Assembly (NCBI GenBank): GCA_021791495.1
Contig: JAJYWN010000040.1
Coordinates: forward strand, 1 to 39,012
Origin: Bacillota bacterium
GTDB taxonomy: Bacteria > Bacillota > Sulfobacillia > JAJYWN01
Length of the DNA: 39,012 bases
Reading direction: 5' to 3'
This document shows positions 27,484 through 28,912 of the stretch, one piece after another. Position 1 is the first letter of the stretch. Each line of letters opens with the position of its first letter. A program made the translations under genes and the position numbers. The notes below the pieces were generated by a model. That model was not told the origin of the DNA, did not search any database, and saw only the letters and a program-made list of their open reading frames with translations.

Positions 27484-27561
27484 GGCCCAGCTCGCCAGTC
27501 CAATCCGCCATTCTGATCGGCCAGCCTAGTCCGCCGGCCCGTTCCGCCAGTCTAGTCCGCC
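27484..27561. repeat. three degenerate 26-bp tandem repeats
   Basis: Plus-strand units at 27484, 27510 and 27536 share CGCCAG-C-TAGTCCGCC. They lie upstream of the P-loop gene, just before the palindrome element. Their CCGCCA half-site is like that of the 17-bp units downstream. Confidence 0.8.
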
Positions 27562-27772
27562 GCCACGTTTGGCTTGCAGCTTGAGGTATTCTGCCCGCGA
27601 GGCCGCCATCCTGCGCGGCGGTGCGGCCTCAGGAGATGGCGGTGCTTCGCCCGGGACTTGGCGGCGCGGGGTGCCCTGCAGGAGTGGTTCGGGCGGGCTC
27701 CGAAGGCGGGCCCGGAGGCCGGGCCCCAAGGCCGGACTTGGGGCGGCGGCGCGAAACCGAACCGGTCCGCAA
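27562..27772. other. GC-rich stretch without a recognisable gene
   Basis: Part of a roughly 700-bp gap between the divergent genes starting at 27407 (minus) and 28108 (plus). Reading frames exist on both strands, but they are Gly/Pro/Arg-rich, match no family and lack ribosome binding sites. Confidence 0.5.
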
Positions 27773-27976
27773 CCGCCAATTCCTAGCACCCCAACGTTGT
27801 CGAAAAGCTACATTTTGTCGTTGTCAGAATTTGGGGCGCTGATTTCCGCTAATAATTGGCAGATTGCCACGGTGGGTCGCTAGAAACTGGCGAAAATCGG
27901 GTTTCCGCAAGGGCGCGGGAGCCCCGATCGCCAAAACCTGGCGATTCCCACCGTGCCGACCGCCAAGAATTATCAT
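27773..27976 (+). repeat. phased palindrome element, copy A
   Basis: Six 17-bp units of the form YCGCYA-N5-TRGCGR, more or less degenerate, start at 27773, 27805, 27846, 27877, 27928 and 27960. Examples are TCGCTAGAAACTGGCGA (27877) and TCGCCAAAACCTGGCGA (27928). Intervals are 32, 41, 31, 51 and 32 bp, all near whole helical turns. A second, inverted copy with the same spacing lies at the right edge of the window. The block 27807-27849 matches it at 34 of 43 positions. It is AT-richer than its surroundings and lies upstream of the helix-turn-helix/nuclease-like gene at 28108. Confidence 0.85.
27866..27957. repeat. 36-bp inverted repeat inside element A
   Basis: The arm 27866-27901 is largely the reverse complement of 27922-27957, sharing CACGGTGGG, TCGC-AG and GGCGA. 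The loop is 20 nt. The arms contain the fourth and fifth palindromic units. An RNA copy would form a long hairpin; as DNA it is a large dyad. Confidence 0.8.
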
Positions 27977-28107
27977 TTTCCAGTGGCAGGATGTGTGATG
28001 AACTCTGTGAAGGCGGTGAATAGCGGGGAAACCGTTCGACCGGCGACGGTTCGCCGGGCAAGACCTACCCACGGCCGCGCTTGCGCCCGGAATTGTTGGA
28101 GGTGTGG

Positions 28108-28866
28108 ATGTTGGTCAGAACCAGCGTGGAGTTACCTTCCGAGATCGTCCTGAGTGCCGATGTCCCGGCTGGAGCTCTGAGGTTATATGCAATCATGCTG
28201 GTCCATAGTGATGACAAGCACTGTTGCCGCTTTCGGAGGAGTGTTCTGGCTGAGATAGCCGGGCTCTCGGAGATGACCTGTCGGAAGTACATTGAAATCC
28301 TGAAGAACCAAGGTTACATAACTTCGATGGGTTCTGGTCAGTTCTCCATCTTGGACGCGGCGGAGACCTTTTGGCTCGGCCGGTTAGAGCAGGTAAAAAG
28401 GCGGCTTGCACGGTCTCAGTTTCTGGGAGAGGCCATAATGCGCGAATGGCTCAACCTCCTGGTGGCGACGGATCGATTTGAGGATAACGCCAGGCCCGGG
28501 TTTAATGTAAATCCCCTGACTGACGAAAGGTTCGAGTATGACAGGTACTACCCGGAGCTTGGCGTTGCCTTCGAGTTCAACGGGCCGCAACACTATGCGG
28601 CTACCGTAAGGTTCCCCAACTCCGAAGAGGCCCGCAAGACCCGGGCCTACGATGCCATGAAGCAGGGCATCGCCAAAGCTAATAACGTGACTCTGATTAT
28701 CATAGAGGCCAAGGATCTGAGCCTCAAAGGGATGTTGGCGAAGATCGGAAACCTTCTACCTCTGACGCCAGGGGCTGAGAAGAGTCCGGTCGCGGCGTAC
28801 CTCGAAAAAGAAAGCACCGCCTACCGAAACAGGGCACGCAGCTTCACCGATAGTTTGAGCAGGTGA
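28108..28866 (+). CDS. helix-turn-helix protein with a nuclease-like C-terminal domain
   Basis: The 252-residue protein has an N-terminal winged-helix region (about 20-85): GALRLYAIMLVHSDD, then FRRSVLAEIAGLSEMTCRKYIEILKNQGYI. Residues about 130-215 resemble Vsr/DUF559-type restriction-endonuclease-fold nucleases: FEYDRYYPELGVAFEFNGPQHY gives Asp145, Glu156, Asn158 and Gln161-His162 in the place of the family's D...E-x-D/N-G-x-x-H pattern, followed by Asp182 and LIIIEAKDL. Nuclease activity is inferred. The ATG at 28108 follows GGAGGTGTGG. Its GC content is visibly lower than its neighbours', suggesting transfer. It sits behind palindrome element A, and 14-bp repeats begin at its stop codon. 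A role in binding or moving that element is possible but unproven. Confidence 0.72.
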   Translation: MLVRTSVELPSEIVLSADVPAGALRLYAIMLVHSDDKHCCRFRRSVLAEIAGLSEMTCRKYIEILKNQGYITSMGSGQFSILDAAETFWLGRLEQVKRRLARSQFLGEAIMREWLNLLVATDRFEDNARPGFNVNPLTDERFEYDRYYPELGVAFEFNGPQHYAATVRFPNSEEARKTRAYDAMKQGIAKANNVTLIIIEAKDLSLKGMLAKIGNLLPLTPGAEKSPVAAYLEKESTAYRNRARSFTDSLSR

Positions 28867-28912
28867 CCGGTGGCAGGTGACCGGTGGCAGGTGACGGTGG
28901 CAGGTGACAGCC
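28861..28912. repeat. tandem 14-bp repeats at the end of the helix-turn-helix gene
   Basis: AGGTGACCGGTGGC at 28861 and 28875, a 13-bp version at 28889 and a partial copy at 28902. The first copy contains the TGA stop. They fill the gap to the convergent neighbour. Confidence 0.93.

Follow-up and report, generated by a model that had tools for sequence, protein, structure and literature searches.

The window, by which we mean the whole 39,012-nucleotide stretch of DNA that was analysed, carries a gene for a protein in which a winged helix precedes a nuclease core of the Vsr/EDxHD type, and this gene belongs to a multicopy family. The fold, a conserved motif, a promoter-like box, and upstream repeat arrays at family members in one related genus are established here (Table 1). 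Tentatively, and with slightly less than even confidence, we read these data as a family of selfish nucleases that would be guided by their winged helices and transcribed from a sigma-H-type promoter, and whose sites may have become repeated beside their genes.

Table 1. Features at and around the nuclease gene, in window coordinates
Feature	Position	Strand	Basis or detail
26-bp direct repeat, 1.9 copies, after the upstream gene and before element A	27520..27569	.	
Element A, a diverged copy from a ~220-bp family of dispersed, palindromic intergenic repeats	27773..27992	+	Alignment and sequence model
Sigma-H-like promoter	27977..28011	+	Box TTTCCAGTGGCAGGATGTG at 27977-27995, AGGA at 27988, GAA at 28009, spacing 17
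wHTH plus Vsr/EDxHD-type endonuclease gene, 252 aa	28108..28866	+	ATG at 28108, GGAGG upstream; model pLDDT 90.6
Winged helix-turn-helix (wHTH) domain, residues 21-84	28168..28359	+	Pfam HTH_24, E 6e-4 (below gathering); VIA Z
Vsr/EDxHD nuclease core, residues 104-218	28417..28761	+	Conservation in 22 relatives; I-Bth0305I and Vsr folds
14-bp GC-rich tandem repeat, 3.6 copies, overlapping the stop codon	28859..28908	.	
Second member of the element A family, B type, near-identical to several others, cut by the contig end	38823..39012	-	

The preliminary description had noted a lower-GC gene encoding a winged helix plus a Vsr/DUF559-like domain. The gene indeed has a lower GC content than any other stretch of equal length in the window (54.7% versus 64.1% for the window; 0 of 192 windows of 759 bp were equally low), and the domain prediction was borne out by the fold, the invariant motif, and PHROG profiles. 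Structure prediction had been proposed as a check, and a full-length AlphaFold2 model made with 22 relatives (mean pLDDT 90.6, pTM 0.75) contains both the DNA-binding wing and the nuclease core. N-terminal Pfam matches were weak and under the gathering cutoff; the fold aligned in VIA-align to CRP-type wHTH domains (Z 9 to 10) and to the N-terminal domain of plasmid Rep initiators (Z 9.6). The winged helix dominated the matches when the whole model was compared with the PDB by Foldseek, and the C-terminal domain was also modeled alone (pLDDT 89). Its best solved match by VIA was the catalytic domain of I-Bth0305I (Z 8.6, 2.9 Å, 93 of 97 residues), followed by Vsr (Z 8.1), with TnsA below (Z 6.3). 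Since Foldseek alone returned no significant PDB match for this domain, its assignment rests on the VIA alignments, the conserved motif, PHROG matches to homing endonuclease and intron-encoded nuclease profiles, and matches to viral homing/VSR/DUF559 models. Pfam, NCBIfam, and PADLOC profiles missed the Vsr-like nuclease.

Across the 22 relatives, D145, E156, N158-G159-P160-Q161-H162, D182, and K185 are invariant and E108 is nearly so, giving the motif strings E156-F-N-G-P-Q-H162 and D182-xx-K185. By the order of this motif, E108, D145, E156, H162, and D182 are candidate catalytic residues of the putative nuclease. Directly downstream of the gene lies a full-length gene of the streptomycin (aminoglycoside) adenylyltransferase family (PF04439; 28931-29815, minus strand). 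Elsewhere in the window, a near-pure run of 72 G residues (1474-1545) may reflect an error of assembly or a homopolymer of an unusual kind.

A protein search of the 4.2-Mb genome to which the window belongs gave 10 matches at 9 loci, equivalent to about nine diverged paralogues, and 28 of the 101 genomes searched were positive, with up to 10 matches per genome. A contig search returned 31 loci, mostly in Bacillota metagenome-assembled genomes named Limnochordia, Thermaerobacter, or Fermentithermobacillaceae; three were from Lokiarchaeota and matched in the nuclease part only. The Lokiarchaeota loci (L032 to L034) share the nuclease core, and two bear treble-clef zinc fingers (DUF4379) in place of the winged helix. 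The own-genome paralogues are 31 to 44% identical across most of their length and stand as single genes amid ordinary chromosomal genes; one (C62) is frame-disrupted and another (C44) is truncated. Reading of their neighbor genes revealed no phage or defense context. The pattern looks like birth-and-death evolution of nuclease genes that are selfish or change fast. No empty site was found in a close relative, the nearest of the genomes searched being from another family of the same order.

Element A scored 140.9 bits (E = 4.6e-41) against a model built from six copies, element A among them, and its palindromes are 15 to 19 bp long with the form CGCYA-N5-TRGCG. The model places its family at ~19 distinct places in the genome. 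Several B-type copies lie at contig ends and are 91 to 99% identical, which indicates that the B branch spread recently. Element A does precede the nuclease gene, as had been described, but the gap from its end to the start codon is 116 bp rather than 130 bp; both sets of short repeats, of 26 bp before the element and of 14 bp at the stop codon, are present. A second dispersed palindromic family, of ~230 bp (GGTCGGAAAACCGGA...TCCGGAAAACCGACC), occurs about 7 times per 800 kb (L183 and L185-L199; G000 C8:49442-49672 and others), and some of its copies are nested in a longer element with the ends CCTAGGTGAGCGCTGCA.

Element A is the only copy of its family that adjoins a nuclease gene, the next-closest pair being 8 kb apart (C62), and the family was not found at any other nuclease locus that was searched, whether in this genome or elsewhere. 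A dedicated partnership between the protein and element A is thus unsupported by the homologues, which at the loci searched occur without this palindrome family nearby; this is the observation that the preliminary description had itself named as counting against its proposal that the protein serves these palindromes. As a general partner of the nucleases, element A was ruled out, as it adjoins 1 of 9 nuclease loci. A dedicated pairing of the window gene with its palindromes is possible.

An alternative that we regard as somewhat unlikely is that element A and the nuclease gene are accidental neighbors, in which case the element would be moved by something unrelated, such as an IS200/IS605 (Y1) transposase, and the nuclease would be an ordinary free-standing homing-type or Vsr-like enzyme with its target elsewhere. 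By a rough estimate, given 19 copies of the element and nine nuclease genes, chance alone would place one such pair within 2 kb ~16% of the time, which, with adjacency at a single one of nine loci, favors such an accident. Dispersed repeats are also common in intergenic gaps, Y1 transposase genes and fragments occur in the genome, and the near-identical B copies need an active mover. However, there was no A-family element within the three Y1 loci examined, and an accident at this locus leaves unexplained the repeats found at other nuclease genes, namely the upstream arrays of the related genus and the long inverted repeats that precede three other paralogues.

The arrays were found in the genus to which G025, G056, and G073 belong, where 9 of 11 nuclease genes had long tandem arrays within 1.6 kb upstream, compared with 9 of 103 control G025 genes with an upstream gap (P = 3.5e-7, an optimistic value in that this test, like the positive own-genome test below, was picked after inspecting the sequences). 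The control is conservative because its tiles were taken from blocks known to hold arrays. All five G025 nuclease genes examined had an upstream array, one of them beyond 1.6 kb. These five arrays are mutually dissimilar, with a different unit at each paralogue, and orphan arrays of these types were found elsewhere without a nuclease gene. Inverted 10- to 20-mers exceeded those of shuffled sequences in 6 of 9 array units. The closest cross-species pair (L128/L122, 70% protein identity) has the unit core TGCACATTC-GCC in common, and a paralogue at 67% identity has a different unit. The arrays reach 14 units over 1 kb, and in some genomes arrays also lie downstream. Cognate recognition of the adjacent repeats, with the winged helix binding them, is plausible. 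For several homologues, including both G047 genes tested, no dispersed copies were found upstream. Just upstream of the 75-bp array in G025, L221 (226-1578, minus strand) may, to judge by reading, encode the reverse transcriptase of a group II intron.

In the window's own genome, the upstream regions of several paralogues contain differing inverted repeats by reading. Long-loop inverted repeats were upstream of 3 of 8 paralogues, compared with 2 of 102 gaps (P = 0.0024, optimistic for the same reason). Perfect palindromes, repeated 14-mers, and palindrome clusters upstream showed no family-wide enrichment over the control. The element upstream of the C8 paralogue has over 15 copies in the genome. 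As a nuclease-specific trait, dispersal of upstream sequence failed its control in a 500-kb sample (27 of 102 gaps versus 1 of 8 nuclease upstreams), and a small whole-genome control gave 1 of 7. The analogy with REP elements and their RAYT transposases drawn in the preliminary description therefore finds partial support: the related genus, with its arrays, individual units, and orphans, agrees with it, and the own-genome signal is modest, whereas the palindrome counts do not support it.

The promoter-like box of the window gene overlaps the edge of element A. A TTTCCAG-yr-GAAGGA box, within two mismatches, lies upstream of 7 of 8 own-genome nuclease copies, and at 12 of 14 box sites with 0 to 2 mismatches NAA follows at exactly +17, the search pattern having contained no -10 element. 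This arrangement fits the sigma-H consensus, which reads RNAGGAWWW at -35 and RNNGAATWW at -10 (PMC8510167). The same box precedes genes for DprA, a ComEA-like protein, and SpoVG, whose identities were confirmed by Pfam; sigma-H is a strong inducer of comEA and dprA in Lactobacillus sakei (PMC3364868). In the related genus, AGGA-N17-GAA was upstream of 5 of 11 nuclease genes, compared with 3 of 107 controls. A sigma-H-type promoter thus probably drives the nuclease gene, which would be expressed along with the competence genes dprA and comEA and with spoVG. That the TTTCCAG box is part of a repeat element was rejected, since the promoter-like box also occurs at unrelated genes; at the C8 paralogue, a box match with four mismatches falls inside the repeat's own palindrome. 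The box was also seen at two small colicin-E3-like Cytotoxic-domain genes, L165 and L172 (G000 C55:9027 and C55:14089). PF09000 matches L165, a gene with an EVK-type motif is adjacent, and a separate 23-bp inverted repeat that belongs to L165 is found again in two other gaps.

The proximity of repeats and promoter raises the possibility that the palindromes are operators at which the winged helix would bind to regulate the promoter of its own gene, with dispersed copies placing other genes in its regulon. The repeats do sit immediately before the sigma-H-like box, and the 17-bp units, with 6-bp arms and a 5-bp spacer, resemble wHTH dimer sites; however, arrays of up to 14 units over 1 kb and orphan arrays are atypical for operators, and the nuclease core retains its conserved motif throughout, so that we consider this reading quite improbable. 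We likewise think it improbable that the protein is a competence- or stationary-phase nuclease that processes DNA or defends the cell by cutting incoming or phage DNA, with the repeats as marks or by-products. The promoter box common to dprA, comEA, and spoVG would fit such a role. In contrast, no PADLOC defense nuclease model matches the protein, the sole PADLOC similarity being to the wHTH portion of CasR regulators, and the paralogues are solitary, scattered amid ordinary chromosomal genes, and in several cases decayed.

According to the selfish-nuclease reading that we favor, the window gene would encode a free-standing endonuclease whose fold is of the Vsr/EDxHD (homing endonuclease) class and which is directed to DNA by its N-terminal winged helix, which most likely reads inverted or palindromic sites. 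The family, being multicopy, diverging, and partly decaying, would behave like selfish nuclease genes, and each paralogue's sites probably became repeated beside its gene and at scattered loci; cutting at the sites followed by recombinational repair would copy or expand the repeats. A RAYT-like manner of working may apply in the related genus. For the window nuclease, element A is a candidate site, and that the enzyme works there in a RAYT-like way is a guess. A more specific version, which we consider unlikely, is a REPtron-like system built on another enzyme, in which each wHTH-EDxHD paralogue would recognize its own palindromic repeat family, array and orphans alike, and act under sigma-H during DNA uptake.

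Our literature search turned up no publication about pairing of nucleases with repeats in this bacterial group. If the pairing is real, a nuclease that cuts both strands, instead of an HUH transposase, could be what breeds repeat families in bacteria, and the numerous pairs of paralogue and repeat within one genus would constitute a natural test of co-evolution between winged helix and site. Even without it, chromosomal multicopy EDxHD-type nucleases with a competence-type promoter would tie selfish nucleases to DNA uptake.

Among known systems, MITE-type miniature elements resemble the element A family in that its members are ~220 bp, noncoding, and dispersed and have inverted ends; they differ in that the family lacks an identified transposase and established target-site duplications. 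In REPIN/RAYT systems (REPtron, TnpA-REP), an enzyme gene stands beside a family of palindromic repeats whose copies are dispersed, and different enzyme copies adjoin different repeat families (PMC3116915, PMC8266576). The window nuclease gene also stands beside such a family. However, RAYTs are HUH/Y1 single-strand nucleases, whereas the window protein has a Vsr-fold nuclease; Pfam gave no Y1_Tnp match to it, and direct reading found no GTAG tag at the element A palindromes. Since both the HUH enzyme and the tag are absent, the window nuclease is not a RAYT. The relatives' arrays of long units also differ from REPINs, and the repeat beside the window gene does not accompany the paralogues. 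Candidate cognate repeats flank most enzyme genes in the related genus (9/11 versus 9/103), are modestly indicated in the own genome (3/8 versus 2/102, or no excess when scored by dispersal), and are not represented by element A.

The Vsr very-short-patch repair endonuclease, which nicks T:G mismatches and is linked to a cytosine methylase, shares the fold of the nuclease domain, but the window protein adds a wHTH domain and its gene has many copies. EDxHD homing endonucleases such as I-Bth0305I differ in that the window protein has an N-terminal winged helix and its gene is chromosomal, free-standing, and accompanied by many diverged paralogues; Rfam reported a tmRNA and tRNA only in the window, with no intron. 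They nonetheless provide the closest comparison among solved nuclease structures, and they share with the window protein the E-D-x-H-D motif order, PHROG profiles, a Vsr-like core whose fold and conserved residues supply the putative catalytic E, D, H, and D, and a separate DNA-binding region, here the wHTH domain.
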